64,000 nt of DNA from Neckera pumila. Its lineage: Eukaryota > Streptophyta > Bryopsida > Hypnales > Neckeraceae. The stretch lies in the NCBI GenBank assembly GCA_963969595.1, contig OZ018415.1:15562001-15626000 (forward strand), in the 5' to 3' direction. Within the stretch, counting starts at the first letter, position 1. Every line of letters begins with the position of its first letter. The notes below the pieces were generated by a model. It saw nothing but the letters and a program-made list of their open reading frames with translations, was not told where the DNA came from and did no database searches. Below, piece by piece: positions 4,904 to 55,745 of the stretch. The position numbers were made by a program, and so were the translations under genes.

Positions 4904-4907
4904 TTAA

Positions 4908-5115
4908 CCCCTAAAGGATCAGCCTGCTGATTTTGGCAATATAACTTTTTTGGGCAGGTACATGTGAGCAGAGATTTGAATCTTTTAGGTTGAAACTTTT
5001 TCACAAGGTGTGGTCTAGGAATATTGTGCATGTGCACAAATTTTCATTGAATTTGGGTATACAAGTAAAAAGTTATGATGTAAAATGTGATTTATTTTTC
5101 AACTAGGGCAATAGA
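4908..5115 (+). repeat. Left terminal region of the piggyBac element
   Basis: CCCCTAAAGG is followed by the palindrome ATCAGC-CT-GCTGAT and then the block TTTTTTGGGCAGGTAC. The sequence from here to about 5115 aligns, with gaps and substitutions, to the reverse complement of 22700-22490. Shared blocks include TTTTGGGCAG, AGAGATTT and AAAAGTTAT. Confidence 0.65.
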
Positions 5116-5895
5116 GGCAGGAGTCTTTACACTACACTTACAATTTCCAGGCAATGCCCACAGTTGTAAGGGCAGTTTAGGAGGCAAGGTATCCAACATT
5201 TGCAAGTTGGGTCCAAAAACGGGTTTTCACTGACATGCTAGAACACAAATAAATGCATGCACTGTCAGATTTGGGGAATGAGATCTTGGCAGTTGGCTCA
5301 GCTGAAGTTAGATGCCATGGACAATGTAATTGCCTTATCTAGATTCAAAGGCTTACTCACAAGACAGTTTTGGAGCCGCCATCTGCAAATTCTTGAGTAA
5401 TGAAATGACAACAAAAATCTCCATGGCATGACACAAATACAAAACTCTTGAATGCAAATCACCTTTTTTTATTAGATTGCAAGTTCATCATAATGTTTCT
5501 AGATCATTGTTGAAATTTTGATTCTAGTTCCACAATATACCAAAATTTATTTCACTTCCAATTTTCAAATGTATTCTATTGCTGACATGAAGAAGCGACA
5601 TTTTTCAAAAAAATTCAAGGCAGCCATCAATTGCCATATCTAATTCAAAAAATCAGAAACTCAAGATAGCCACCATTGTTGTAATGCATTGAATGACCAT
5701 AACGTTCAAGCTTTCTTCACAGAGCCAAAACTACAGAGCATAGCAGCAACTTTGAATTACCAAAGAGCATGGATGGAGCAAGCATGGTGAAGAGTGACTC
5801 CAGTGTCCCAAAAAATCAGCAGTTTAGGAAAAAGTAATTCAGCATCTAGTCTTGAGAGCTGCAACTTGATCATTGAGTCCACATAGTCAGGAGGG
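5116..5895. other. Interior of the piggyBac element, no gene seen
   Basis: This is non-coding sequence between the left terminus and the first open frame. I find no promoter motif that I would defend. Confidence 0.4.
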
Positions 5896-6354
5896 ATGAG
5901 GGGTATCCCATCGCAGCAGGTCGGAGCTGCTTCAAACACAGGCGCAGCTCAATCGCAGGAGGTCAGCGCTGTTGAAGGAGGCGCAGTTCAATCGGACGAA
6001 GTTGGAGCCGCTGAAAGGGGTGCAGCTGGATCAAAGGAAGTCAGAGCCGATGAAGGTCCAGGAGTTGAATCGAAGGACTGTGGAGCTGCTAAAGGAGGCG
6101 CACTTGAATCAAAGTTGGCAGTACTGGAGGAAATTCTTGTGGTGAAAGAACGGCCCATGCAACCTCTACATATCCTACAAGAAGAGCTGCAATTCTTACT
6201 CACCAATTGTGCAGGAGCTAGTTCATTGCAAGTTGCAAGAATGGTTGTGCTCCTTGACATCAACCACCTGAGATCTCTACTTCTTCAAAAAGGGACATTG
6301 AAGTGGCCACGTGATCCAAAAGTAGCTAACTACAGGCATCATTTCTACAGGTAG
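5896..6354 (+). CDS. Hypothetical 152-aa open frame with 13-residue repeats
   Basis: The frame opens with ATG at 5896 and ends with TAG. Residues 6-71 are five consecutive units of about 13 residues, each beginning with Ser and rich in Glu, Gly, Ala and Val (for example SDEVGAAERGAAG and SKDCGAAKGGALE). The DNA period is 39 bp, after a first unit of 42 bp, so the frame is kept. The remaining ~80 residues include a Leu/Glu-rich helix-like segment around ILQEELQFLLTN. I recognise no family. It sits inside the piggyBac element upstream of the transposase, so it may be a second element-encoded frame, an early exon, or captured sequence. Frame preservation is the only sign that it was coding. Confidence 0.3.
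   Translation: MRGIPSQQVGAASNTGAAQSQEVSAVEGGAVQSDEVGAAERGAAGSKEVRADEGPGVESKDCGAAKGGALESKLAVLEEILVVKERPMQPLHILQEELQFLLTNCAGASSLQVARMVVLLDINHLRSLLLQKGTLKWPRDPKVANYRHHFYR
5911..6114 (+). repeat. 39-bp in-frame tandem repeat, five units
   Basis: Units start at 5911, 5953, 5992, 6031 and 6070, each beginning TCG or TCA. The first unit is 42 bp and the others 39 bp. Units differ by several substitutions, many at third codon positions. Confidence 0.7.
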
Positions 6355-7725
6355 GTGGCCCATGCATTAGGATGGTGAGAAAGGCTCCAATTTCACAAGG
6401 ACGTCCATTTTTTTCATTAAGGATCACGTGTGGCCAGATTTACCTTCAGTATCAACTATACAAGGAGAGAAACGGAATGCCAAGACTTCCGCAATTCCTA
6501 AAGGGAAAATGGGTACGTCATATACTGTGCTAGTACATTTTTCAAGTTCTGTGCTTGCTGTATTTCCTTGAACAATTGGCACACTAGCGGTACTATTCAG
6601 GACCCGAGCAACAAGAAAGTTCAAAAACTAGTTTTGGGATTACAATTGCTTACCTATGGTCCTCGCAATTTGCACGCGATGATGTACCTCCGCGCCGGAG
6701 TGCTTGGGTCCTTGAGAGCAGGGCTAGCGTTGTCGATCTGGAGAGCGCGGCTGCGAACTAGACAGAGGGCGGCACTGACGTTCAGCTCCTCCTTGCCGAA
6801 GCCTGCTTGAGCGACAGCTCCAACGTAGGTGATGAGCCGTTGCTGCCACGGAGTCTGATCGGACCGTCAGCGCTACCCGGAGACCTACATGATCATGACT
6901 TCAAGGCCTTGAATGAAGTTGCAGATGTCCGCATGCAGTTCGGCTGAGGGACCTCCAGAAATCAGATGGCGAGTTGGGGTCGCAACTGCACCTGGGAGTT
7001 GCACACGCTACAGTTGGCGACCGTCGATGTAGCTCCACATCGAACCCCGTCCAGAGGCCACTTCTCCGAGAGTTGCAGGCGGACGAAGACCTACAAGATC
7101 CTGAACATGACCAACACAAAGATCATGAGATTGCGGAAATGGAAATTGGCGAAGCAATAGACGAGTTCAACATCTCCTAAGAAAGTGAGTTACCTCATGG
7201 TAGGCGAGAATCTAGTTGTGAAGAACTATTTTATTCCGATGCAAAGACCTCAGACGACTCCGACCTTGGCTCAAAGATTTCTGCTAGCCGCCCGAAATGA
7301 CGCACTCATCAATATCCTTGCACCGCTCAAGATCACGAAACAATCCAAAATGCAAGACAAGAAGAAGTGGCGCTTGGAAAAAATTGTGTGGCAGTGCTGG
7401 GAGAGAGAGGGCGGGGGAGGAGCTCGTAACAGATGACTTCAAAGGCAGGGACAAGCGCTCTGATGGTCGCGGAAGACCTGGTAGCTGGCAAGCAGGCGAG
7501 CTTGATGCGGGCAGGGACTAGTGGCCCGACCCCAACCCTGACCCTGACGGTGCAAGCATGTCTCCATTGGCCGCCCAACGCGTGGCACTACGCGAGCTGT
7601 TGGGCCAGCTGCTAGTTGTTCCCCCCTTGGAGCCGCATTTGAATTTCGACCCAGTAATTCCGTTGGAGGGAAATGGGCCAAGGGTCCCCCTGCCTAACTT
7701 AGGCTGTAACATTCATGCATTTTAG
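6355..7725. other. GC-richer interior of the piggyBac element, no clear gene
   Basis: From about 6650 to 7690 the sequence is clearly richer in G+C than its surroundings, and several overlapping short frames are open. None has recognisable content. A frame ending near 7180 is acidic (HDQHKDHEIAEMEIGEAIDE) and could be a remnant of the acidic N-terminus that piggyBac transposases often have. A possible acceptor (GCATTTTAG at 7717-7725) precedes the transposase frame. Confidence 0.3.
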
Positions 7726-9403
7726 GGTTATGAGGGTTTGGATTCTTTGGATGAGGGATACTATTCAAATGTAGAGAAGCTAGAGAATGAAAATGAAGAT
7801 ATAGATGAGGAAAATGAACTTGCGTATGAAAGAGGTCATAGTAGTGATGATGGAGATCTGGATAACCCCAGCGGTGTGAAACATCTTTTCAAAGAATCAA
7901 CATGGGCAAGAGCCAATTTTACATACTCCCCAGAACGTCGTGCATTTGTTGGAATGTCTCGCCCTACATCACATTTCCGTAGGATGCCAACATTTATGGC
8001 ATTGTTCTCTTTATTTTGGCCATATGCTCTTTTGAGGAAAATTAAATGCATGGCAACTTTGAAGGCATATTTGGTGGTATAAATATTTTTGGGATTGAAG
8101 AGACAACCTAACTTGAAGACGGATTGGACAAAAAAAGGTTCTTTCTTCCATTGTCCTCAAATTTCTCAAGTTTTTACTCGTGCTCGCTTCCAAGCAATTA
8201 CAAAATGTCTTCATATTACCAACCCGGCTATCTATGTGAGGGAGAGAGCATTACCGGGCTATGACAAAATGGAGCAGGTTCGTTGGCTAGTAAATGACAT
8301 CAAGGATAGTTTCAAACGCAATTGGACACTAAAAAAATACATCACAATGGACGAGATGATGATTAGGTACAAGGGTTCTTATTGTCCAGCTAGACAATAA
8401 ATGCCTAAGAAACCCCAGAAATGGGGCATCAAGGTGTGGTGCCTTGCAGACTCTTTGTCAAGATATGTATACACCTTCGACATTTACTATGGAGCCAATC
8501 CGAATTTAGCATTGGATGAAGTGCCCATCGTCATTCGTGGAGAGCCTCGATTAGCCCACAATGTGGTCATGGACTTAGTACAAGGTCTTGGAGACAAGGG
8601 GCATGTTCTTGTCACGGATAATTTTTTTCTCAAGCGTAGGCTTATTCATGGAGTTGTCCACTATCCACATTTATGCCATTGGCACTATATGATGCAATCG
8701 TATAGGTTTACCTTTGGAATTGAAGACATTGAAGGATTGGAAGAATTCTACGCAAGGGACATTGCAATGGAAAATGCATGAGAATAGGGGAATTAGTTGT
8801 GTTCTTTGGAAAGACAAGCGGCCCGTGCTCCTAATTTCTACCCATGCTTGGCCTATAGTTCCTCCTTGTGTCCCCATTCCTACCGTGCCTCGTAGAAATG
8901 GAGCAGTGAGGAATTCCATTCCTACATCTCCCGTACATTTGGAGTATACCACATACATGAGGGGGGTAGATGTCGTGGACCAATTGCGGGCATTGTATTC
9001 ATGCCAAAGTCAATCGCACAAGTGGTGGCACCGGGTCTTTGCATTTCTCCTAGACACGATGGTGGTGAATATGTACATTTTGTACAAAGGCATTTTGCTA
9101 ATAAATGACTGGGCAAAGAAACCAATGACACACCTACAATTCAAGTCTAATTTGTGTGTGGCTCTACTACAAAATTGGAAGGGGCGTGAAACGGATGTTG
9201 AAGAAAAAGATCCAAGGAGACATTTGCCAACATGGAGCCACATACGACGTACTTGTGTAGTTTGTGGTTTCCAATCTTGCCACCACTATTGTCGTGCACA
9301 CCATTGGGCATACATGTGTCTAAACCGTGGTTACTTTGCGGAGTTCCACTATGGGCCCCTAAACCGTGGAGGTGCTCGACATCAACGCCACCTAGTACCT
9401 TGA
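7726..9403 (+). pseudogene. Broken piggyBac-type transposase (DDE_Tnp_1_7 family)
   Basis: The translated stretch follows the piggyBac plan: an acidic N-terminus, a DDD nuclease core, and a C-terminal Cys/His-rich segment (CVVCGFQSC...HHWAYMC near 9255-9320). Catalytic Asp codons are visible at 8350-8352 (TMDEMM), 8617-8619 (VTDNFF) and 8969-8971 (GVDVVDQ). WKDKRPVLL and HKWWHRVFAFLLD are also typical family blocks. It is not translatable: TAA at 8080 and 8398 interrupt one frame, the frame shifts between about 8625 and 8642, and a TGA stands at 8690 in the new frame. No in-frame start is visible upstream, so an upstream exon or a lost 5' end is likely. The final stop is TGA at 9401. The enzyme would cut and paste DNA at TTAA, which matches the flanks of the host element. 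Family assignment is strong; activity is excluded. Confidence 0.85.
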
Positions 9404-9410
9404 GGGTATG

Positions 9411-9720
9411 TTTCATTTTCCTTCTTGAGTTTTTTCTCATTTCCAATTTTTTTTCTTTCTCACAAGGCATTTTTCCACCCTAAAGATATATTTCTTTTCC
9501 TTCTTGAGTTTTTTCTCATTTCCAATTTTTTTTTCTTTCTCACAAGGCATTTTTCTACTCTAAATATATATTTCTTTCCCATCTTGAGTTTTTTCTCACT
9601 TCCAATTTTTTTTTCTTTCTCACAAGGCATTTTTCTACTCTAAACATATATTTCTTTCCCATCTTGAGTTTTTTCTCACTTCCAATTTTTTTTTTTCTCA
9701 CAAGGCCATTTTCTACTCTA
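9411..9720. repeat. ~80-bp tandem repeat, first block (four units)
   Basis: The phrase CTTGAGTTTTTTCTCA recurs at 9424, 9503, 9583 and 9663, giving a period of 79-80 bp. Each unit also carries TTTCTTTCTCACAAGGC. It begins just after the transposase stop codon. Confidence 0.85.
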
Positions 9721-9747
9721 AATGCACTACCTCCCCCCAAAAAAAAA

Positions 9748-10430
9748 TACGTGTTAGTACACTTAGTGACATATGATTTTTTTTTCTAAGATCATATGTC
9801 ACTAAGTACATTAATCCCCCAACATATGTGTTAGTGCACATAGTGACATATGATTTTTTTTTTCTCTCTAATATCATATGTCACTAAGTGCACTACCCCC
9901 CTAAAATACGTGTTAGTACACTTAGTGACATATGATTTTTTTCTAAGATCATATGTCACTAAGTACATTAATCCCCCAAAATATGTGTTAGTGCACATAG
10001 TGACATACGATTTTTTTTCCCTCTAAGATCTTATGTCACTAAGTGCACTAACCCCTCAAAATACGGGTTAGTGCACATAGTGACATATAATTTTTTTTTC
10101 CTCTACGATCTTATGTCACTAAGTGCACTAACCCCCCAAAATACGGGTTAGTGCACATAGTGACATACATTTTTTTTTCTCTAAGATCATATGCCACTAA
10201 ATGTACTACCCCCCACCCCACCTTACCCCAAATATGTATTAGTACACTTCGTGAAATATGAGTTTTTCTTTCTAAGATCATATGTCACTAAGTGCACTAA
10301 TCCCCCAAAATACGTATTAGTGCATATAGCGACATACAATTTTTTTTTTCTCTAAGATCGTACGTCACTAAATGCTCTACCCCCCAAAAATACGTGTTAG
10401 TAAAATACGTGTTAGTATTAGTGAAATATA
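9748..10430. repeat. Array of eight ~80-bp units, each with a hairpin
   Basis: Units start near 9748, 9826, 9908, 9982, 10061, 10141, 10231 and 10311, with a partial ninth at 10391. Each contains an inverted repeat. In the best units, ACTTAGTGACATATGAT (17 nt) pairs perfectly with ATCATATGTCACTAAGT across a T-rich loop of about 10-14 nt. Later units carry substitutions in the arms. The array splits the other ~80-bp array into two blocks. Confidence 0.85.
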
Positions 10431-10620
10431 TTTCTTTCCCATCTTGAGTTTTTTCTCACTTCCAATTTTTTTTCTTTCTCACAAGGCCATTTTCCACTCT
10501 AAACATATATTTCTTTCCATCTTGAGTTTTTTCTCACTTCCAATTTTAATTCTTTCTCACAAGGCATTTTTCCACTCAACATATATTTCTTTTCTTTCTT
10601 GACCTTTTTCTCACTTGTTT
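10430..10620. repeat. ~80-bp tandem repeat, second block (about two and a half units)
   Basis: The CTTGAGTTTTTTCTCACTTC phrase of the first block reappears at 10443 and 10521 with a 78-bp spacing. A degenerate partial unit follows near 10599. Confidence 0.8.
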
Positions 10621-11384
10621 CTTGTTTCATTTTTTATTTTTCATTTTTGGGTCTTCATTGTTTTTTTAGGCTATCCTATTTTATATTTTTCACTTCCTTC
10701 ACACCATTTTTCCCCGGTAATTTCTCATGAAAGTGATGTCTAATTTTTTTTTTGCAGATTACACTCTGGATAGAGTCTGGAACACTCTAAAACCATTCCC
10801 ACACATCTCAGCCTTTCCCCAATCCATAGAACTGCCGTCTCCTTCCCCCAGTTTCATCCAACCGCCCTCTCTTCCCCACAATTTCATTCCTTGGCCTTCT
10901 CCTCCCCAGTCTCATCCACCTGCCTCTCTTCTTGTTGCCCCTTCCTCTCTTTCCCAATCTGCCCTCCCTTTCTCTCCTTCCTCCCTCCTTTTGCTCTGGT
11001 CTCCCCTTCCTCTACCCAACTTCTGTCCGCCTCTCTTCCTACAGTCTGATACCCACTAGCTAGCAAGGAATTCGGTGGAGGACACAGAAAACCTATCACA
11101 CTCCATCTTTTGGGCAGTCCTCGAAGGTGGAGGGAGAAGTCAGTACCCGGCATTTTTAGATTTTTAACCCTGCTTCCAACCTGCCCTAGGCTGTAGATCT
11201 CAATCTCCTTGATAAGTTGGTGAAATTTTAGCTATTCACTTTGGGATTTTTTTATATGATGGACAAGATGATAATCTAGGTGATGACCGTTCATTTTTAG
11301 GAAAAACATCTGTACAAAGAAGCAATGAATTTCTAAAGATTTCCAAGTGCTGGGCTTTTTTGTGAAACCTCTTTGCACATTTCA
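10621..11384. other. Interior of the piggyBac element, pyrimidine-rich stretch
   Basis: The section 10790-11060 is C/T-rich and gives a Pro/Ser/Leu-rich open frame that I regard as compositional. TTAACCC occurs at 11164 but does not match the termini of the other TTAA elements. No gene is seen. Confidence 0.4.
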
Positions 11385-11754
11385 TTTTTTCCTATATGTT
11401 GCACAATTCTAAACGATTTGAAATTTTTGGAGCATGCACATTACTGACCATGAAGAATGAGTTCAAAGAAGCACAAGTGAAACAGACTTTTTTTGGAGTG
11501 AATTAGCCCTTGTGAAGTGCAGCTGCCCACAATTTTCAAGCACTAAAAATAGTGATTTTGGCACTTTAAACACTATTTTCTTGCAATCCGCACAGTCAAA
11601 AGTTCCAAAAAAATACCATGTATTCCTAGCCCACCCTACTACAAGATCCTACTATATATAGCAAAACTACTCCAAAAAAATAAATTAGTCCTTGCAATAG
11701 AAATGGCAATTTTGGAGACTTTTTGGTGAAAACATAGTCAAAGAACTTTAGGGG
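11385..11754 (+). repeat. Right terminal region of the piggyBac element
   Basis: The stretch from TTTTTTCCTATATGTTGCAC to CTTTAGGGG matches the right part of the element at 43705-44551 in the same orientation (44190-44547). It also matches 21796-22160 in reverse complement. Shared blocks include AAGTGCAGCTGCCC and GACTATG or its variants next to the terminus. Confidence 0.75.
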
Positions 11755-11758
11755 TTAA

Positions 11759-12231: not shown

Positions 12232-13355
12232 CACTACAAGAGAAAAAAAGTGTATTAAGTGAGTTTTTTACCTCTAAAAGACCATTGTCCCTTCGAGGGA
12301 CAAATGAGATTTCAGCAGGTATCTATGGGGCTGAAATTTTGTCTTGATTTTTTTTTTTTTTTTTTTAAAGATAGAAAAAATGATACGCTTTGTGGGAATA
12401 TAAATTTCTTTCCAATTGGTGCCCAGAAATAAAAGTTATGCCCAAATAAGCTCAAAACCGGAAAGAGGGGGCAGTATTTTTTTTTTTTTCAAAATTTAAA
12501 AAAAAAATTGAATTTTTGTTCTCTATAGATTTGATTCTTTCCTATAGATTTGATTCTTCCCTATATATTTGCCTATCTAGAAAGTTTTGATTCATTTCAT
12601 TTGGATTTGTTATGAGAAAGTTATGGACAATCTTAGTTTTCGGGCACTTAGAGCATCTTCCTGAAAAAAATAACTTGTAGGATTCATTTCCGAATGCAAT
12701 TTTTACAATTTCTAAAAAGAAAAGTTCTATGTGGTTTAGTTTTTTTGCTAGAACAATCTCACCATTGGAATTAGTACATTTTAATTCCATCTAAAATATA
12801 TGAGTATTTCAGAATTTCCTTCTATCTCATATCTACTTCTACCTAACAATTTTTTAAAGAATGGTAATTAATTTTTTTTTATTTTTAATTTTTTCGCTAC
12901 ACTCTCAACTCAATTCTCCACTATAAAATTTAAAGCTCAAAACTCATTAGTGCAAAAAATTTAAGTTAAAAATGTTCAAAGTCAAAAAATCTAATCCAAC
13001 AATGTGCTGAAAAACTTATTTTTTTCACTTTGAACACAGATATCTTGCAATTTGTGCAGTCAAAAATTCTGAATTTTTTTTCCCACATTTTCATGTTAGT
13101 TAGGTGTAAGATCTTATGGTTGGACTTGCAAAGGTAACAATTTTCAAATTTTTTTACTCTTTGCTATAAAAATGGAACTTTTGAGTGTTTTTTTGCAAAA
13201 AAAAAAGGCCTTGAGCCTTTAGGGATTAAGTATAGTCCTAGACACATGATTTTAGGTAATGACCTTAAAGGCAATGCTGAAATGTCATTCCTTAAAATCA
13301 TGTGTCTAGGACTACATTTAAAAACTCACTTAAAACACCCCTTTCTCTTGTAGTG
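12232..13355. mobile_element. CACTA-type MITE carrying a nested TTAA element, 1124 bp overall
   Basis: Both ends begin CACTACAAGAGAAA when read inward and continue as matching inverted repeats to about 38 bp (AAGTGAGTTTTT is shared). GAC flanks both ends (12229-12231 and 13356-13358), a 3-bp duplication as in CACTA elements. Near the right end is a long inverted repeat, with AGTCCTAGACACATGATTTT at 13234 pairing with its complement ending near 13314. The middle (12271-13225) is a decayed TTAA element of the kind at 47818-48744. Without that insertion the CACTA part would be about 170 bp. Confidence 0.8.
12267..13229 (+). mobile_element. Decayed TTAA element (family I) nested in the CACTA MITE
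   Basis: The left end reads TTTA then CCTCTAAAAGACC; the right end, reverse-complemented, reads TTAA then TCCCTAAAGGCTC. Ten bases inside the left terminus is the palindrome GTCCC-TTCGA-GGGAC, followed by ATTTCAGCAGGTA. The interior matches 47822-48740 in the same orientation. The left TTAA has decayed to TTTA. Confidence 0.65.
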
Positions 13356-18381: not shown

Positions 18382-20464
18382 AACCCAGAAAACACCATTA
18401 TCACTCTAGGATACATCTCCAAAATCAGTATGTACCTATGTGGAAGAACCTATGTGGAAGTAACAATTTCAGAACCTCTACCAAATTTTTTTGATCCTTC
18501 ATAACTTTTGCATACATTATCCAAATGTCATGTTCTTTCATGCGTTGGAACCTCCACTTTCACTTCTCAACTAGAAAATATAAAAATTTGACCAGTCTAA
18601 TAATAGTAACTAGGCACAATACCAAAAAGTGGCGGTCTGGGTGACTTTAAGCACTTGACAAATTTGGTGCCCTGCCAACCGTGGCTCACATAGTCTCCCC
18701 TCTGTCTGTGTAGACAATTTCTTGGGCACTGATGGCTGCTCTCAAAAATCATGACCGTCAATTTCGTTAAATTTGTGACTTTCCATTAAAACGACCCGGT
18801 TGACCCAAGCTATGAAGGAAACGTAACGATTTAGGGATCCAGGAGGCGTGGAAATCCTGGCTTAGCAGTGTACGATGTTGTGAATGAAATCCAGAAATCG
18901 TGATAAAATTTGAGAAATTTCATGGTTTACGTACCTGTCCATGTCAAGAAAAAGCAAAAAGCACCGCTAATTCCAGAGAATTGACGCTGACATTCTAGAT
19001 TTAAGAATACAACTTAACAGTAGATATGTCCGATCGATAACCCTTCTCAAGTCTTCTCACTCTCGAAGGTTATCTAGGCCATTACTAAAACTTTATTACG
19101 AAGCACATTTTGAAACAATCTCATGTCTAAAATGAAAGTAAAATAGCAAGCAATGGAATGCATCGCCTGAGAAAGACCAAAATATTAGGAAGCATGAAGC
19201 AGGACCACTCTGTCTCCCAATACTTCGGCGAACGATCGAAGCACAAGATAAGAAACTAATTGCTGCATCAAGTGCAAGAAAAAGGGTTAATTTTACTTCT
19301 TGTGATTGTCATGAATGGTAGCCCTCATTCTGAAAATGGAAATGATGTAAAAGAATTCTCTTCACATTGAATTCGAGCCAAGAAATCATTAAGGCACGTA
19401 CCTTCTGATCGGCACATGCATGCATCTGCTGTCCGGAATGTGAAAGAAAGAAAGGGAGTTCAATTCAACGAAATGAGCGGTTGGCTCTTCCATGCTTGCC
19501 AGAATCAACCGAACATCTAATTAAGATCGTCATCACTTAGGAATGAATTGAAGTGAAGTTGCTTCACACTGCAGCTAGCTTGAATACTCTAGAATTAAAG
19601 ATTACTTACATCTATTCTGAACATTACGAAACAAACATTCTAGCTGCACCCAAGACTGGTGTACATCAGTTGTTGCCACATGACTGAAGCACAGGTAGAT
19701 TAATATCAATCTGGTTTCCCCGATTGCCGACAGCAGAAATAGAAGTTGTGCCACTGATTTTAACTAATTAATGGCCGCCTCTAGTTCCGAGGGCAAAATT
19801 CTAAACCCTGCCAGGAAACTTTTGATGTTGGACTAGAGAAACAAGGATAATCTCCCTCACCTGGGATTTAATTTGCACTTATATACGCCAAGTCAGGTAA
19901 GTAGTGTTGGAGAAAGACAGAAAGCACCCAAGGCCGTCGATTTCGTTCTCTATACTATTGGCACGATTCAGAGTGCTGCCTTCTATTGTGACTTGCAATT
20001 GCATGCCCGAAGCTCTAGAAACAACAACTGCTATAGATTTCGTTTTCAAGATGCCCGCATTTATAATTAATTGCCTAAGTCGTGAATATCTGCCAATAGC
20101 GACATTGACGTACGTCGGTGATAGGTGAGGGAATTAATATATTGGGACGTGACTTCGAACATGTTGGACCGGAAAGCTGCCAAGGTTACCTACTACTGAA
20201 GTACTCTTTGTAAATAATGTCGTTTCGACGCATTTATTTATTCTAATATACTACTCCGTAACAGGTGCTTACGTACAATGACAGGATTTAATATTTCGAA
20301 TATGTATTCCAAACTGTTGCTCAGATTCATGCGCCACAGTGCGGGTCTGATCAAGAGTCGGAGATCTATCAAGAGCCAATGCAAATTAAAGAGGAAACTC
20401 AAATCCTGAACTCAAGGACAGGGATCACAACCCTTCTCCACTTCGAGGGACAATTTTCCTTGAT
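18382..20464. other. Mixed-composition spacer; possible spliced non-coding transcript on the minus strand
   Basis: This stretch is less AT-biased than its neighbours. On the minus strand it contains several strong donor-like sites: CAG/GTACGTAAAC near 18934, AAG/GTACGTGCC near 19400, GTAAGTAATC near 19608 and CAG/GTGAGG near 19860. There is also a good acceptor, CATTTCCATTTTCAG, near 19331. No convincing protein frame accompanies them, so a transcript is only a possibility. Confidence 0.2.
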
Positions 20465-20618
20465 GAGATGCTAACTACAGATAAGTTTAAACATATCTTG
20501 CGGTTACTTTAATTTCCAGCCAGTATTGGTAACTTGAGATGCTAACTACAGATAAGTTTAAACATATCTTGCGGTTACTTTAATTTCCAGCCAGTATTGG
20601 TAACTTGAGATGCTAACT
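20465..20618. repeat. Perfect 71-bp tandem duplication
   Basis: The unit starting GAGATGCTAACTACAG occupies 20465-20535 and recurs at 20536-20606 with no difference that I can find; its first 12 bases start a third time at 20607. The lack of divergence suggests a recent event. Confidence 0.9.
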
Positions 20619-21791: not shown

Positions 21792-22704
21792 TTAACCTTT
21801 AAAGTTCCATGACTATGTTTTCACCAAAAATGTCCAAAATTGCCATTTTTAGTACAAATATCCAATTTTTGAAAAAAAATAAAATTTGACACATGTAACC
21901 GTAGGATGTTGTATTATGCTAACTTAAGAACATGTGGTAAAAATTTCAAATATTTCCACAACGTGGATTGCAGGATATAAGCATTCAAATTCACGAAAAT
22001 CATTTTTGGGCCTTGCAAAAAATAGCTGCACTTTACAAGCTCACTTTTCTATAAAAAAAACTGTCCAAAATGGTGGTGCTTCTTAGATTCTTTTTCCTAG
22101 ACAAGTTGGCTACATGCTTGAGAATTTTTAGATTATTTGAAATTGTACAACGTATAAGAAAAAAATTGTAAGTAGATATATAGTAGTAGAAACTGATTCA
22201 AAATACTAAATTTAATCATGGAATCAAAAAATGCTAATCTCAATGGTTGCAATATTGTAATAAACAATCTACATCCTGTAATTTTATTTTTTTCAAAAAA
22301 TATTGAAAATTGAGTAAGATAAAGGACTTCAAAGTTTATTTTAGAGTAGAGAATCCATAATTGCCTGCAATCTAAAAATCTTCATAATTTTTTACTCATT
22401 AATCAAAATAGGATGTTTCAAAGCTTTTCATATATAAATAACTCTTGGAAAACCAATTTCAAGTTTATGAAAAAAGTGATGTTTTTATTTGCCCAGACTG
22501 CCCAATTGCAAAAAAGGTAACATATTAGGTTATAACTTTTGACTCACATTTCCAAATGTCATGAAATTTAGTGCATGAGAAAGACATTCCTTGTTCCCAC
22601 CTTCTGTTAAAATTTGGGCCAAAAATATGGAAATCTCTAGTCAAACGTATCTGCCCAAAATTTCAATGTAGCCAGAAAACACATGTTGGTCCTTTAGAGG
22701 TTAA
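21792..22704 (-). mobile_element. TTAA-bounded element (family II), 905 bp inside the TTAA pair
   Basis: TTAA stands at 21792-21795 and 22701-22704. The ends read CCTTTAAAGTTCC and, from the right, CCTCTAAAGGACC. Its two ends match, in reverse orientation, the right and left ends of the transposase-bearing element at 4904-11758. It also matches the element at 43705-44551 over most of its length. No transposase frame remains, so I read it as a non-autonomous relative. Confidence 0.75.
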
Positions 22705-31273: not shown

Positions 31274-32420
31274 ATGGGGGCGACCACGATAGGGATGATG
31301 GACGCCGCTTACTTTGTGGGGCGGAACGAGATTCTTTCTTGGGTGAATAGCACATTGGAGCTTTCCTTGAGCAAAGTGGAGGAGGCGGCGTCCGGAGCAG
31401 TCTACTGCCAGTTGATGGATGTAGTTCACCCGGGGATGGTGAGCATGCACAAGGTTAGCTTCGATGCCAAGTCTGAGTATGAGATGATCCAGAACTACAA
31501 GGTGCTCCAGGATGTGTTCAACAAGTTAAAGATCGGGAGGCACATCGAAGTAAGCAAGCTGGTGAAGGGGCGGCCGCTCGATAATCTGGAGTTTCTGCAA
31601 TGGATGAAGCGCTACTGCGACTGTATAAACAACAATCACGTGAATCCGAGCTACAATGCCACCGAGAGGCGGGAGTCGTGCAAGGGAGGGAAAGAGACCA
31701 ACAGGCGCGTGTTGGGGAGTACGCAGGGTAACCAGTGCAGTAGCAAGCCTATTACGAATGGGGGTAGCGCGAAGGCCAGCAATGGCGGTCATGCTCGACG
31801 GGTCACGGAGAATACGCACCCTAACATGAATGGTCGCGCTCCCATCACGGCTGCGTCCCCTGGTGTGAAGCAAATGCAGGACGGTGTGCAGGTAACAGAA
31901 CTCCTCAACTCATCGTGTGCCACGCTTTTGAGAAAAGAATGTGTTGACCTTAGGAATGTGCTATGCAAATCAGATCTGATTTTGTGTACTTCACTGCAGG
32001 CTTCTGGCTCGAACGAAGATAAGACACAGATTACTAATTTGAAGCTTTCGGTTGAGAGTCTGGAGAAGGAACGTGATTTCTACTTCACCAAGCTTCGTGA
32101 CATCGAGATTCTCTGTCAAGCCCCGGAGCTCAGCCATCTTGCGGTTTGTGTCTCCACCTCCACAGTCTTGATGATCTCATACGGTCTTTCTTACAATGTA
32201 GGGGACTGAGTACGGACTGTTGAGCTTATTTTGACATTCCTTGCTGTTTGATCAACAGGTTGTGAAGGCCGTGCAGAAGATTTTGTATGCTGCTGAGGAC
32301 AGTCCGTCAGTGATCGCGGAGGCCAAGGCTATGGTGGAGGATGATGAATCTCACCAGAGCCAGGAAATTCTTTCACCAGGATCGCAATATATGGACGACA
32401 ATCAAGAGCTTGTAGGTTAG
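31274..32420 (+). CDS. EB1: EB1-type microtubule plus-end-binding protein, three exons
   Basis: EB1 proteins track growing microtubule plus ends and recruit other factors. Exons are 31274-31891, 32000-32143 and 32259-32420; the introns of 108 and 115 bp are GT-AG and keep phase 0. The product is 307 aa, close to plant EB1 length. Residues 8-118 form the calponin-homology domain (MMDAAYFVGRNEILSWVN, KVLQDVFNKLKI, KGRPLDNLEFLQWMKRYCD). A Ser/Asn/Gly-rich linker follows to about 206. Residues 216-275 carry the coiled coil and EB1 core (SLEKERDFYFTKLRDIEILC; VQKILYAAED). The tail is acidic and ends QELVG, with no EEY-type terminus. The start has a strong context (ACCATGGGG) and is the first in-frame ATG. 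The first intron has no in-frame stop, so unspliced RNA would add 36 codons. Confidence 0.95.
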
Positions 32421-37661: not shown

Positions 37662-40600
37662 TCATGAACCGAGCTGGAAGTTGTGGTGGATGGCGGCTAT
37701 GGCGTCGAGATGCAAGAATTGATTGGAATTCGGGAGGTTCGGGATGGCGGTCACATCGCCCGTCAATATTTGGTGCACCAAGCGTATGGAAGGTCGTGCG
37801 CTTGGATTCGGCAAGCAGCACAAGAGCCCCAGTTTCAGCGCTCGCGTCTGCTCGTCGTGCTCACGCGCCAACTCCGCCTCGACTCTTCGCGTGAGCGTCC
37901 CTGCAAACTCCACAAACTCGACCCCACATTCTTCTTTTGCAAGAATTTGAGCTTGACTCGAATCACCGGAAGCCCAGAACGTGGCGTGGTTGTTGTGGGT
38001 TGTGATTCGGAGACGCGAATCGAGAGCAGTCAAGAGATCGCCGGCATCGTGTGCGCGCCACACGCGGTGAAGGAGGAGGACGTCATGGGATTCGTGGTCG
38101 CAGGAGGAGTCCACGGGCTTCTTCCCGCAGACGACTTCGAGCATGAGTACGCCGAAGCTGTACACGTCGGTTTCTTTCGTGGCTTTCCCCGTGAACAGCA
38201 TCTCCGGGGCCATGTAGCCCAATGTCCCTGCCATCAAGGTCGTCTTCTCCATCTTCTCGTGGTCGATGAGGCGCGCCAGGCCGAAGTCGCCAAGATGCGC
38301 GTTGAACTCCGCGTCGAGCAAGACGTTGCTGGACTTGATGTCGCGGTGGAGGACGCATTGCTGCCAATCCTCGTGCAAGTACTCGAGCGCGGCCGCGACA
38401 CCCGTGAGAATGGAGAATCGCAAACTCCACGCGAGCTCTTTCCTGTCTTTCCGTCGGCCGTCGTACAACCACTGATCGAGGCTGCCGTTCGGCATGTAAT
38501 CATATACAAGCAGAGAGCTCCTGTTGTCAATACACCACCCTTTCAATTGCATCAAGTTCCGGTGCCGGATTTGGCCTATACTCGAGGCCTCCGCGAGAAA
38601 CCCTTCTTCCCCTCCAGACGACTCGTGAAGAATGCGCTTCACCGCGACGACCTCCCCCGCGGAGCGCAGCACGCCCTTGTACACAGACCCCATTCCCCCG
38701 CGCCCGATGAGCTCACTGAAATTCTTCGTCGCCGCGCTCAACTCCCGCAACGAGTACTTCCGTGGACCAAACTTCGCAAACAGAGGCTCACAGTAATGCA
38801 ATCGCCGTCGTCGTCTCCCCCAACACCACCACACAATCGCCGCTAACCCTAAAAATACCACCGACACCGTGACGCCCAGAATCAAGTGCACCACTCTGTT
38901 CCGATGAGTCTCTGTAAACAGGGGCGACACCAAAACCTTCAAATACGCCGAGTGATTCCCGACGTCTTGCGGGAGCCCCCCATTGAACAACGGCCCAGAT
39001 TTAATGTAACACCGCGGTTCCCTTCTCCAGAACACCGCCCCCTCGCACTTACAGTCCTTCTTACACAATTCCATGCACTCCGCCTCGGTCGAATTGACAT
39101 ACGGATACAAACGATTCGCATACGGGAAATCGGTGTCCCCCACTTTCCGAAGCTCAATCTTGGAGCTATTCAAGTCGCAACTCGGCAGCTCAAGTATCCG
39201 CTTACACCCCTTCGTCTTGTCGTCGGGATCCACATAAGCAAACCCTTCCGGACACGAGCATTGTCCCAGATACGCCGGCGACTCGGGATCCGGGCTACAA
39301 ATAGCGTAAGGTCCGCATTCAGCAAAAACTCCGCACGGTTGCGCCGCCCAGTTGCTCTCTATTGACCAAGAAATCGAGGTGCCCATCGTCCACGAGTACA
39401 ACCTGAATCCGCCGTCGCGATCAAGCGTCGCCCGTCGGAGAGGACCCACATTGGATGACATCGAGCTCATCACCAAATGCTCCGAGGATGCGTTCCCGGC
39501 GTAGAAGCTGCCGTTGAAGAGGATGTAATCTGAGACTGAGTAGTCGATCAAGTAAGGGTAGTAGACTGTGTTGGGACTGATTGTGACGCTTATGTTGGAC
39601 CAGGAGCTCGTGTTCCATGAGGGGATGCTCTTGCCGTTCCAGCTGAGGGTTAGGGCTGAGGAGCCGTTGATGGGAAGCCAGGTGCAGAAGTAGTAGCCCT
39701 CGCTCCAGTCGCCGGCTTCGCGCCAGGAAATGAGAGAGCGGCTTTGGGATGCGCGAAGGTATTGGCCGGGGAGCAGCGTGTCGGTGGGCGTGTCGAAGCT
39801 TTGCCAGAGGATGTTTGTGGAAGTGGAGTCCAGGAGGACCAGGTTGCCGGTGTCTTGCAACTGTAAGGAAGTCGCTTGCATCTGCGAACGCAACGAACAC
39901 AAGGATCAGGGTGCGAGGCTTGAGAAGATGAAGAGCTCTGGTCACATTTGATCTGTGGCCGTAGCGAATGCAGGGTCGTTGGTTCAAGGCTCCATACAAA
40001 AGTTCATAGGACAATGGGAGAGAGAACAGAAACGACATCACAATTGTAGGATTCTACAATGGGCTAAGAATTGCACAATGGTGGAATTGAGAAACCAAAA
40101 ACAGGACAGTGGGAGAGAGAACAGATGCTACAGCAGAGTTTTAAAATTCTACAAAGGGCTCAGAATTACACAATGGTGGAATTGGAGTGGGAGAGAGAAC
40201 AGGATCTCCAGCAGAATTTTAAGGTTCTTAAAAGGGCTCAGAATTGCACAAACATGGTGGAATTGGAGTGGGAGGGAGAACAGGTCGGACCTACATCACA
40301 ATTTTAAGATTCTACAATAGGGTTGGAATTGCACACAATGGTGGAATTGAGTACAAGGAAGAGCTTGATCTTTGACACCCTTAAAATGAAAAATTAGTGA
40401 TTGATAGAACTTATTATGTGGATTGAGAATAGCACAATTGTTAAATTGTTAAATTGGAAATAAATAAAAGCAAGGACCTTTGACACCCCTATTAAACTTT
40501 AGAAGATGCACCCTTGATGACCAAGGTAGTCACCAAAACATCTCCGATTATTAGACCAATAGGTGCATTCTTTGTTTCTATAGTGAACAATGAAGTCATC

Positions 40601-43704: not shown

Positions 43705-44551
43705 TGAACTCTAAAGGCTGGCTAGGATTCTCTAAAGTCTGTATCTATTTGATGAACTGAGCTCATTAGGCAAATAGTATTTTGTTTGAAAAAATCTTCA
43801 TTCATCTAAAATAATATTTGAATCTTTATGATCTATTTGATGAAATTGATATGAATATCATATATGTTCAACATTATAAACTAAAGTGAGCTAAAATCCT
43901 ACAAAAGATTTGAGTCATTCCATTTCAATCAATGAGTCAAAAGTTATGAGGGTTTTTAGTTTGCGGGCAGTTATAGATTGTCTACTCTAAAAAAACCCTT
44001 TAAAGTCGTTTATTTAACTCAATTTTCAATATTTTTGGAAAAAAGTAAAATCCTAAGGTGTAGACTGATTATTACAACATTACAACCGTTGGGATTGGCA
44101 TTTTAAAATTCTATAATTAAATTTTTAACAATTTAGTAATTTAAATCATTTTTTACTTCTTTCTACTTACTATTTTTTCCTATATGTTGTACAATTCCAA
44201 ATGATGTGAAATTTTTCAAGCATATAGACAACTTGTTTAGGAAACTGAATTCAAAGAAGCACCACCTTTATCGGCATTTTTTCATTGAAAAGTGAGCTTG
44301 CAAAGTGCAGCTGCCCGGTTTTTCGCAGAATTGAAAAAATGGTTTTCAAGACTTTGAATACTTATATCTTATGATCCACACGGCGGAATTTTCTGAAACT
44401 TTTACCACATGTTTTCAAAATATTATACTACAAGATGCTACTGTTACATGTGTCAAAAATTGTTTTTTTCCAAAAATTTGGTAGTTGTATTAGAAATGTC
44501 ATTTTTGGAGCATTTTTGGTGGTTACATAGTCATGAAACTTTAGGGGTTAA
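43705..44551 (+). mobile_element. TTAA-type element (family II), left end decayed
   Basis: The right end is intact: CTTTAGGGG followed by TTAA at 44548-44551. From about 43900 to the right end it matches the element at 21792-22704 in reverse complement. Its right ~370 bp matches 11385-11754. A candidate left end, TGAA followed by CTCTAAAGGC, lies at 43705, but TTAA has changed there and the assignment is tentative. Confidence 0.6.
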
Positions 44552-46616: not shown

Positions 46617-47368
46617 TTAACCCCTAATTGCTTGAGCGACCAAATATGGTCGCTCCAAATTTCAGGCAAATAAATTCCTTTGACTGGTTAAATTTTTTTA
46701 CTAGCAGTATTGAAGGTTAACTATTGGAAACTTTTATTTTTCAGTAAAAAAGATTAATATTTGATTTTTGAGAGGTCCTCAAAGGCATATATGTATCATT
46801 AGTGTGCCAATTTCACTTGATTTGAGATCTAAAAAGTTGTACTTATCCATTTGTTTTGAAAACGGTCCCAGTGGAAGGAATAAAGTGTTTTCATGATTTT
46901 CATTGTTGAAAATTTAAACATGCAAGTGTTGATTTGGAGTTATTTACAATTTCTACTTATCAAATAAAATTGCATTTCAACAACTACAAGGTGGATTGTG
47001 TAATGAGAGTGATAGCTCTTTATTTGAACTTAAGTTTCTTAGAAGTGCATTTTAGTGTGCTAACGCAATTTCAAATTGTTCATGTCACATCCAACTCCAA
47101 AAAACTCTTATATGCAAATTTCTCAAACATTGTAGGGAGGAGCAGCATACTAAAAATAGGATACTTACATTTCTCTTGTTATAATATCACAACTCCTATG
47201 CAATTTTACACTCAAAATTGGTAAGTACACTAATAAACAACCTTTCTAAACATCTACATGGTTAGATTTTGAAAAACAAACAATTTGCTTCATTGGAGAT
47301 AACTGTAAGCTCATGTTTTTATTTAAAGGAAAAACACACTTGGAAAGGCTTAGGCACTTAGGGGTTAA
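46617..47368. mobile_element. TTAA-bounded element (family III), 744 bp inside
   Basis: TTAA stands at 46617-46620 and 47365-47368. The ends read CCCCTAATTGCTTGAGC and, from the right, CCCCTAAGTGCCTAAGC. Just inside the left end is the perfect palindrome GAGCGACC-AAATAT-GGTCGCTC, then ATTTCAGGCAAAT. The interior is not similar to the other TTAA families and encodes nothing recognisable. Confidence 0.75.
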
Positions 47369-47733: not shown

Positions 47734-48819
47734 CACAGGAAGAACGGGGAGGCGTTACCCTCCCCGGTATTCTTTCCTAGGGTGTTTCTTCCCCCCCCCC
47801 CCCTTTGACTTTCAGTTTTAACCCCTAAAGGACCATTGTCCCTTTGGGGGACAAATGCATTTTCAGGCAGGTACCTACAGGTTGAAATTTTCTTCTGATT
47901 TTTTGAAACTTTTTTGGAGGTAGAAAAGCTTATTAGCTCTATGGACATATAATTTTTTTCACAATCCGTGCTTGGGAACAAAAATTATGACCAAATAAGC
48001 TCAAAACAGGGGACGGCGAGCAGCAAAAAAAATTTGCAATTTCTTTTTTTTTTTTGAGTATTTTTTTCTCATAGATTATATTTTTGTCTATCTAGAAAGC
48101 TTTGATTCATTTCATGTGGATTTTGTATGAGAAAGTTATGGACATTCTTGTTTTTTTGGGTAGTTAGAGCATCTTTTTGAAAAAATAACTTGTAGATTCA
48201 TTTCTGAATGAAATTTTTTAAGTTAAAAATTTTTTTTTTTGCATGGTTTAGTTTACTTGCTAGAACAATCTCACCATTGGGATTAGTGCATTTCAATCCC
48301 GCCTAAAATATATAAATATTTTAGATTTTCCTTCTATCTTGTACCTACTTCTACTTAACAATTTTTTTAATAATGAAGATTAAGTTTTTTTGAACTTTTT
48401 TTTTTTTGGCTAGATTTTTCAACTCAATTCTCTAGTATAAACATTAAAAGCTCAAAACTCTGTAGTGCAAAAAAATAAAGTTAAAAATGTTCAAAGTCAA
48501 AAAATCTAGTCCCACAATGTGCTGAAAAACTTGTTTTTTTCACTTTAATCGCAGATATCTTGCAATCTGTGCGGTCAAAAATTTTGAAGTTTTTTCTACA
48601 CATTCTCATACTAGTTAGGTGTAAGACCCTACGGTGTTAGATGTACACAAAAAACATTTTTCAAATTTTTTTACTTTTTGTTATAGAAATGACAATTTTG
48701 AGTGTTTTTTGGCAGAGAAAGGGCCTCGGTCCTTTAGGGGTTAAGAAAGTCAAGGGGGGGTGAAGAAACACCCTAGGAAAGAATACCGGGGAGGATAACG
48801 CCTCCCCGTTCTTCCTGTG
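47734..48819. mobile_element. Foldback MITE with a TTAA element in its loop, 1086 bp overall
   Basis: The ends begin CACAGGAAGAACGGGGAGGC in both directions. The inverted match extends about 80 bp, through a GGTATTCTTTCCTAGGGTG block and a C/G homopolymer to CTTTGACTTTC. GACA flanks both ends (47730-47733 and 48820-48823), a 4-bp duplication. Removing the TTAA element at 47818-48744 leaves a nearly complete hairpin of about 165 bp with TTAA at its apex. The superfamily of the outer element is not clear to me. Confidence 0.75.
47818..48744 (+). mobile_element. TTAA-bounded element (family I), 919 bp inside
   Basis: TTAA stands at 47818-47821 and 48741-48744. Both ends begin CCCCTAAAGGACC. Inside the left end lies TTGTCCC-TTTGG-GGGACAA and then TTTTCAGGCAGGTAC. 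The right end carries the imperfect palindrome AAAGGACC-GAG-GCCCTTT. It matches the nested element at 12267-13229 in the same orientation and 53784-54715 in reverse. Confidence 0.85.
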
Positions 48820-48879
48820 GACATAGACTTTTTGATGCCGTGGTCAAATTGAGTGCAACCAGTGACAAACTCTAAACTT

Positions 48880-49660
48880 TTTGGATTGTAGATTGCAGAC
48901 TTGGAGTGGCTTTTCATGTTCAATCCCTAGTTTCACAAGTTCAGGACGTACGTACAAGTTGCAAGAAACCGACACTCAGGGATCGATCGAGGCGATTCTC
49001 CTGCTCAGTGATCGATCCAAGTGGGTGTACGTTCCAAGTTGGAATCTGCTTTGGCACCCAACTTCTAAGCTAAAACTGAAAGGCCGAGTTCTAGCTACTG
49101 CTGTAAGTTAGCTTTTCGATTGTTGAGTGCAGACTTGGAGTGGCTTTTCATGTTCAATCCCTAGTTTCACAAGTTCAGGACGTACGTAAAGTTGCAAGAA
49201 ACGATACTCAGGGATCGAGGCAGTTTTCCTGCTCAGTGATCGATCCAATGTGGGTGTACGTTGCAAGTTGGAATCTGCTTGGCACCCAACTTCTAAGCTA
49301 AAACTGAAAGGCCGAATTCTAGCTACTGCTGTAAGTTAGCTTTTGGATTGTTGAGTGCAGACTTGGAGTGACTTTTCATGTTCAATCCCTAGTTTCACAA
49401 GTTCAGGAAGTACGTAAAGGTGCAAGAAAAGATACTCAGGGATCGAGGCAGTTTTCCTGCTCAGTGATCGATCCAAGTGGGTATACGTTCCAAGTTGGAA
49501 TCTGCTTTGGTCCCAAATTCTAAGCTGAAAAGCCGAGTTCTAGCTACTGTCAGTTAGCTTTTTGATTGTTGATTTGCAGACTTGGAGTGACTTTTCATGT
49601 TGAATCCCTAATTTCACAAGTTCAGGACGTAGGTACGAGTTGCAAGAAACCGACACTCGC
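48880..49660. repeat. ~228-bp tandem repeat, four units (last partial)
   Basis: GCAGACTTGGAGTG recurs at 48895, 49129, 49357 and 49576 (spacings 234, 228 and 219). Each full unit includes CAAGTTGGAATCTGCTT and a GAATTCTAGCTACTG-like end followed by a donor-like GTAAGTTAG in the first two. Part of the unit also occurs at 46240-46330 and 55630-55745, at the end of each large direct repeat. Confidence 0.85.
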
Positions 49661-53783: not shown

Positions 53784-54715
53784 TTAACCCCTAAAGGCCC
53801 AAGGCCTTTTTTCTACCAAAAAATACCCAAAACTGCCAATTTTTTAGCAAAGAGTAAAAAAAATTAAAAATGTTTTTTTTTGCACATCTAACCGTAGGAT
53901 CTTGCACCTAACTAGTATAAGAATGTGTGGAAAAATTTTCAGAATTTTTGACCGCATAGATTACAAGATATCTACGTTCAAAGTGAAAAAAACAAATTTT
54001 TCAGCACATTGTGGGACTGGATTTTCTGACTTTGAACATTTTTAACCTAAATTTTTTGCACTTCAAAGTTTTGAGCTTTAAATTTTTATAGTGGAATTTG
54101 AGTTGAGAATCTACCAAAAAAAAAAGAGTTCAAAAAAACTTAATTTTTGTTATTAAAAAAATCGTTAAGTAGAAGTAGGTACGAGATAGAAGGAAAATCT
54201 AAAATATTCATATATTTTAGATGGAATTAAAATGCACTAATCCCAAGGATGAGATTATTCTAGCAAGTAAACTAAACCATGCCAAAAAAATTAATTTGAA
54301 AAATTTGGAAAATTACATTCAGAAATGAGTCCTAAATTTATTTTTTTTCAAAAAGATGCTCTAACTGCCCAAAAAACAAGAATGTCTATAACTTTCTCAT
54401 AACAAATCCAAATGAAATGAATCAAAGTTTTTAACATAGAAAAAAATATAATCTATGAGAAAAAAAATACTAAAAAATAAAAAATAAAAAAAATGCAATT
54501 TTTTTTTGTTGCTTGCCATCCCCTGTTTTGAGCTCATTTGGTCATAACTTTTGTTCCCGAGCACCGGTTGTGAAAAAAACTATATTCCCACGAAGCTAAT
54601 CAGCTTTTCTACCTCCAGAAAAAGTTTCAAAAAATCAAGAGGAAATTTTAGCCTGTAAGTACCTGCCTGAAAACACATTTGTCCCTTGAAGGGACAACGG
54701 GCTTTTACGGGTTAA
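53784..54715 (-). mobile_element. TTAA-bounded element (family I), 924 bp inside
   Basis: TTAA stands at 53784-53787 and 54712-54715. The ends read CCCCTAAAGGCCCAAGGCC and, from the right, CCCGTAAAAGCCCGTTGTCC. The subterminal palindrome TTGTCCC-TTGAA-GGGACAA lies near the right end. It is the reverse complement of the element at 47818-48744. The unoccupied site is seen at 45001-45004. There is no coding frame. Confidence 0.9.
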
Positions 54716-55541: not shown

Positions 55542-55745
55542 TTAATGAATTTTTATTCAAAATTCTGGGTTCCTGCACCACTGCTACTGCAGTTTCAGCT
55601 GGGTGGAAATAGGGAAAAAACAATCTGTGCTGGTGAGTCACATTGTGATCGATCCAAGTGGGTGTACTTACGTTCTAAGTTTGAATCTGCTTTGGCCCCC
55701 AAATTCTAAACTGAAACTGAAAGGCCAAATTCTAGCTACTGTACA

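Follow-up and report, generated by a model that had tools for sequence, protein, structure and literature searches.

In a 64,000-nucleotide stretch of the genome of the moss Neckera pumila (contig OZ018415.1; hereafter the window), positions 4904-11758 are one dead full-length piggyBac element. The initial annotation was right about its superfamily, its boundaries, its full length, its dead state and its plant host. Very probably it is a piggyBac-superfamily transposon that moved by cut and paste and is dead in this copy, and it belongs to a clade of which the moss genome has many copies. More broadly, we lean towards the view that mosses host a deep, recently mobile piggyBac clade whose transposase would often start with a helical domain of an undescribed kind on an exon of its own (here called open reading frame X, ORF-X); one sub-lineage may have replaced or lost this exon, and one family therein would have its gene reversed relative to the ends. 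The parts of the element are as follows, in window coordinates.

4904-11758, + strand: full-length dead piggyBac element, 6855 bp including both TTAA, with paired TTAA+CCCCTAAAG ends and two further full-length copies in the genome
4904-4916, + strand: TTAA target duplication at the left end, with the 9-bp terminal inverted repeat CCCCTAAAG
4904-5119, + strand: left terminal region, common to the small element 21792-22704
6217-6512, + strand: ORF-X relic, a possible first coding exon, with in-frame stops and a frame change near 6413
6513-6600, + strand: 88-bp intron predicted from sequence motifs (donor AAAATGG/GTACGT, acceptor TATTCAG/GACC, second acceptor candidate at 6588)
7726-9403, + strand: transposase relic, DDE_Tnp_1_7 and a C-terminal Cys/His stretch
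9407-10616, + strand: two interleaved tandem repeat arrays of about 80 bp, within the element and 3' of the transposase
11385-11758, + strand: right terminal region, with 40 scored genome matches including itself, among 2701 unconfirmed first-look candidates
11746-11758, - strand: right terminal inverted repeat and TTAA

The translated region 7726-9403 matches Pfam DDE_Tnp_1_7 with an E-value of 7.1e-35 in a single frame and of 9.5e-57 when read through the frame change near 8641. The three catalytic Asp codons that had been annotated as intact are in place (8350, 8617 and 8969), and Asp 209, 298 and 415 of the relic, counted as residues in the profile alignment, align with D268, D346 and D447 of the piggyBac transposase. 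Judged from this alignment, their retention is unremarkable on its own, since the relic keeps 39 of the 44 columns invariant among its 14 alignment partners anyway. The reading frame has three premature stops, at 8080, 8398 and 8690, and about 25 codons were lost near 8047, taking with them the otherwise invariant N, Y and A of ETNRYA. A profile of the relic and 14 relatives retrieved two distinct solved sequences at E <= 0.001, piggyBat (2.3e-65) and piggyBac (8.7e-59), and it aligns through the Cys-rich C-terminus of both structures; this stretch is present in the relic, where Pfam finds DDE_Tnp_1_7 alone. Among the rows of the tree described below, the one nearest to the relic is P0001, an assembly protein with 60% identity.

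The boundaries of the element were located using the TTAA motif itself. The 13-mer TTAACCCCTAAAG is present at 4904-4916 (+) and 11746-11758 (-); with at most one mismatch it occurs eight times in the window against 0.21 expected, a count reached by none of 100 shuffles. The terminal inverted repeats at both ends start with CCC, as in the piggyBac superfamily, and the TTAA target site duplication is found on both flanks of the window element, at nine copies of the families A, B and C described below and at the copies on C1 and C4. In the moss genome (339,505,838 bases in 18 contigs), the first 400 bp show 93, 71 and 77% identity to places on C1, C4 and C10, respectively. These three places were fetched to test the pairing of the ends, and two of them hold full-length copies carrying both ends, C1:3938277-3944934 (6658 bp; 93-94% identity at each end, 88% across the initial 5 kb) and C4:4079402-4087327 (7926 bp; 71-72% at both ends). 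Because the same ends bound these two other copies, both ends belong to one element. The C1 and C4 copies start and end with TTAACCCCTAAAG and present ORF-X and the transposase in the order of the window; their transposases are also broken, with matches scattered over several frames. At C10, the left end and ORF-X are present; the initial 7 kb gave no transposase match, and 10.5 kb gave none to the right end. The tandem repeat stretch 9407-10616 is matched in the C1 copy too. In the window, one of its two arrays is nested in the other, and the second kind of repeat looks nearly palindromic.

The element is no rarity within its own genome, because at least 116 transposase matches exceed the family cut-off (116 scored of 873 first-look candidates, which are not confirmed copies). 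Of these matches, 35 have no internal stop, although two of the 35 cover only about 280 of 349 positions. A second search, with the closest relative as query, yielded 71 matches; it had 1181 candidates, of which 68 were scored. Twenty loci were fetched as a non-random sample (list ranks 1-7, 9, 11, 13-22 and 76), 18 being stop-free in the match, and boundaries were assigned by paired ends at 12 of the 20. Family A (L009, L010 and L011) comprises copies of 5630-5634 bp with 98.8-99.2% identity end to end and 16 identical terminal bases, TTAA included, at both ends. The two copies of family C (L015 and L017) are 5371 bp long and 98.9% identical, and those of family B (L016, L018, L024 and L026) reach 7.2-7.3 kb with 93-96% identity by summed pieces, in which internal repeats are counted repeatedly. 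As the strand of the end matches shows, the transposase gene of family B is reversed relative to the ends when compared with family A and the window element. The flanks within a family are not colinear and share only repeats, reversed or out of register, so the copies look like separate insertions rather than segmental copies. The near-identity of the family A copies at unrelated sites points to recent movement, and the families would thus be recent and able to move. All three family A copies also remain stop-free in the longer match of the closest-relative search. Nevertheless, stop-freedom in general holds for the Pfam match only, and the longer match has a stop in two of the four family B copies. 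As a separate observation, the left flanks of L015, L017 and L013 show an apparent terminus of another element directly before the TTAA, the flank ending in TTTTAGGGG, CTTTAGGGG or TTTAAGGG, as though an element had inserted into the TTAA that another left behind.

Upstream of the transposase, the open stretch 5887-6354 matched one protein, P0241 (69% over 45 amino acids, aa), and tblastn widened this match to 6217-6544 over two frames. With the same protein, tblastn recovered ORF-X in eight of the 20 fetched loci, and visual inspection added L013. When nine ORF-X stretches were made into a profile, it found the domain in ten of the 20 loci and in the window, always upstream of the transposase and on its strand, including L019, which was absent from the set used for building the profile; in L021, ORF-X is some 4 kb upstream of the transposase and is possibly part of a different element, and a profile hit in L023 with a score of 0.7 was disregarded. 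The search of the genome with P0241 scored 150 of 196 candidates and returned 111 matches; some places contribute two of these, the window being an example. Thirty pairs were obtained with ORF-X at most 6 kb upstream of a transposase on the same strand (distances of 1238-3079 bp), covering 30 of the 116 transposases, and none in the other three arrangements (upstream reversed, or downstream either way); 500 random shifts gave 0.11 pairs on average and at most one. The list of 71 transposase matches, whose pairs may overlap with this first set, gave 17 pairs with ORF-X upstream on the same strand and none otherwise. Moreover, two of three places fetched among the unlinked ORF-X matches have a transposase directly downstream. 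The domain is predicted to be all helical (mean predicted local distance difference test score, pLDDT, of 77.5). Between L014 and L023, the ratio of non-synonymous to synonymous substitution rates (dN/dS) is 0.24 for the ORF-X domain and 0.09 for part of the transposase.

In many members, ORF-X is probably the first exon of the transposase gene, spliced to the part leading into the catalytic core. Splice motifs were sought in six related copies (the window, L029, L030, L031, L036 and L037), and a donor motif, AAAATGG/GTAC or GTAAGC, follows the ORF-X domain in all six. The next conserved motif, PxRRSxRL, is preceded by acceptor candidates in the window (6601 and 6588), in L037 (2699 and two others) and, weakly, in L036; the intron predicted for L037 is 113 bp long. 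Families A and B share this motif, there preceded by an acceptor candidate with a pyrimidine-rich stretch, and in them it lies in an open frame leading into the transposase (894 aa in L009 and 844 aa in L018). Several points weigh against this reading or limit its reach. The acceptor pattern was not found in L029, L030 and L031, which leaves candidates in three of the six copies and several per copy; in L036, no stop interrupts the frame between the domain and the motif, the predicted intron included, so that this segment need not be an intron. ORF-X was not found in ten of the 20 fetched loci (families A and B, L012, L020 and L025), so that not all members have it; 81 of the 111 ORF-X matches have no transposase within 6 kb in the list covering 116 of the 873 candidates. 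In family C, three ORF-X copies differ by six or seven non-synonymous against zero or one synonymous changes, so that no constraint is shown, the changes being few. Finally, the predicted joining of the exons is read from sequence motifs that were searched for.

The main rival to the first exon, possible but less well placed, is a separate accessory gene like ORF1 of PIF/Harbinger elements. ORF-X does have an open frame of its own of 75-273 aa in ten loci, differing from the transposase frame in nine of them, and the domain is carried by none of the 120 listed transposase relatives. The missing fusion says little, however, as it depends on how the exon structure of these relatives was predicted; both the donor motif after the domain in all six related copies and the place of PxRRSxRL in the frame leading into the transposase argue for an exon. 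It is because the L036 frame stays open through the predicted intron that we hold the first-exon reading only as probable and leave the separate gene a real share.

A quick tree was built from 72 rows, namely the relic, the 20 loci and 51 of the 120 listed relatives (those of at least 470 aa), with support from the Shimodaira-Hasegawa-like approximate likelihood ratio test (SH-aLRT) only. Here the 21 moss rows group with 31 metagenomic ones (SH-aLRT 99, branch length 0.83), apart from the insect rows P0106 and P0109 and 18 other rows; the placement of L019, L028 and the family C rows is unsure given their long branches. The moss label needs seven changes on the tree, so several lineages coexist in the moss. 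A recent horizontal transfer into mosses from an animal or another source is unlikely. It would agree with the moss rows being interspersed among metagenomic ones and with the absence of piggyBac from the plant superfamilies in the available part of a 2008 paper (PMC2528002), but the seven changes fall inside a group split from the two insect rows and others by a long branch, which suggests a long residence, although several transfers are possible.

In the tree of moss rows (21 in all), one change accounts for the presence or absence of ORF-X, the domain being absent in families A and B and in L012, L020 and L025. This also bears on the capture of a host gene piece by these transposons, which we regard as improbable. 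ORF-X has no Pfam or NCBIfam match and no reliable structural match in the PDB, and a search confined to 84 candidates gave a single similar protein, which leaves its origin open to such a capture. Nevertheless, its 111 genome matches are tied to transposases of several lineages, and any host capture must have been old because of this link and of the single change on the tree.

The small elements of the window are the following.

12267-13229, + strand: 963-bp transposase-less element, with TTTA in place of the left TTAA
21792-22704, - strand: 913-bp transposase-less element, both ends related to those of the full element
43903-44551, + strand: right-end fragment of a transposase-less element
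46617-47368, + strand: 752-bp TTAACCCCTAA-bounded element, whose interior matches the others only weakly
47818-48744, + strand: 927-bp transposase-less element, inserted at a TTAA within the loop of a fold-back
53784-54715, - strand: 932-bp transposase-less element, 86% identical to 47818-48744

The left region 4904-5119 matches 22704-22490 (69% over 217 bp, 3e-27) and the right region 11385-11758 matches 22164-21792 (66% over 385 bp, 1e-35); the right end also matches 44155-44551 (66%), within the fragment 43903-44551, for which no matching left end was located in the window. Family A is matched at both of its ends by the elements at 12267, 47818 and 53784, in the case of 47818 with 65% over 211 bp and 61% over 561 bp; compared with the matches of these three to the window element, those to family A extend further and have lower E-values. 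Therefore, of what was initially annotated, the recurrence of the ends in nearby transposase-less elements stands, but not the description of these as miniature inverted-repeat derivatives of this copy: they appear to be relatives sharing ends at about 59-69% identity (BLAST), not deletions of it. The six paired TTAA-bounded elements, the large one counted, make up 17.7% of the window. That the two ends of the large element come from different elements, with the transposase between them by chance in a composite or nested arrangement, is highly improbable. Its length (6.9 kb) and its GC-rich and tandem-repeat stretches would allow it, but the C1 and C4 copies have left end, ORF-X, transposase and right end arranged as in the window, and both ends recur together in the 913-bp element.

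The fold-back element (47734-47817 and 48745-48819) has 66-nt arms that are 97% complementary and a loop interrupted by the 927-bp element. Its flanks, joined by a single TTAA, fold into one long hairpin, which is taken as empty-site proof of insertion at TTAA. By eye, GACA can be read on both sides.

In the piggyBac superfamily, the transposase binds the ends, nicks beside the TTAA, generates hairpins at the TTAA overhangs and inserts the element at a new TTAA; the donor TTAA closes losslessly. By analogy, a three-aspartate (DDD) transposase would have bound the ends of the moss element, cut at TTAA and inserted it into another TTAA, and the donor site would have closed without a scar after excision. 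The window copy decayed through stops, a frame change and a deletion, its ends staying recognisable. Related transposases probably mobilised the small elements in trans, and the likely role of ORF-X is end binding or regulation.

The piggyBac transposase (PDB 6x67/6x68), presumably from Trichoplusia ni, shares with the relic the DDE_Tnp_1_7 core, the aligned D268, D346 and D447 and the TTAA target, and the family profile aligns with its C-terminal Cys stretch. In contrast, the moss element has a 9-bp shared terminal repeat and an extra upstream domain, and it measures 6.9 kb against about 2.5 kb as given in part of PMC10813416. No PDB entry matches the family profile better than piggyBat of Myotis lucifugus (PDB 9c0f; 2.3e-65 over profile positions 17-552), although its host is an animal (excerpt of PMC11707139) and the moss element is again longer, with the 9-bp repeat and the extra domain. 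According to passages of PMC10813416, piggyBac elements of small animal genomes span 1.23-9.51 kb, with repeats mostly shorter than 20 bp, TTAA targets and CCC starts, all of which fit the moss element; unlike it, they are stated there to have single open reading frames, and these passages concern animals only. PIF elements with a second open reading frame (PMC2528002, in part) resemble it in the second conserved coding stretch beside the transposase, but belong to another superfamily with mostly TAA/TTA targets, and the moss stretch may be a transposase exon.

piggyBac elements are well known from animals and, as initially suggested, rarely described in plants. They are absent from the list of plant superfamilies in the 2008 paper, as far as its available text goes, but portions of later broad surveys list piggyBac (PMC4438587, PMC10004981 and PMC6890710); piggyBac in plants is thus not unreported, and the element is common in its own genome. 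The open-access literature searched, supplements excluded, contained no described moss piggyBac clade and no such upstream domain. Excerpts of two moss genome papers give DNA transposons as 23.7% of the Pohlia nutans genome (PMC9247546) and terminal-inverted-repeat transposons as 29.1% of that of Ptychostomum knowltonii (PMC11704416), and the present clade is relevant to the abundance of DNA transposons in some moss genomes. As a transposon tool, piggyBac is in wide use, and its natural members in the literature consulted come from animals. Young plant members with open transposases would supply a plant-adapted piggyBac, show how such elements coexist with a plant and allow the front domain to be tested.

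Elsewhere in the window, the EB1 gene at 31277-32209 has 78% identity over the query to Ceratodon purpureus, 68-70% to Physcomitrium and 59-61% to Sphagnum, and assembly proteins reach 92% over 72% of the query. The closest named match being Ceratodon, a moss of the class Bryopsida according to its database record, the window is of moss origin. A receptor kinase frame at 37662-39905 (-) contains lectin and S-locus domains in one open frame, with a PAN domain just below the cut-off. An exact 71-bp tandem duplication lies at 20464-20605, which sequence searches ruled out as a transposase piece. Four tandem copies of about 228 bp occupy 48877-49658, and a related stretch is present at 55626-55741.

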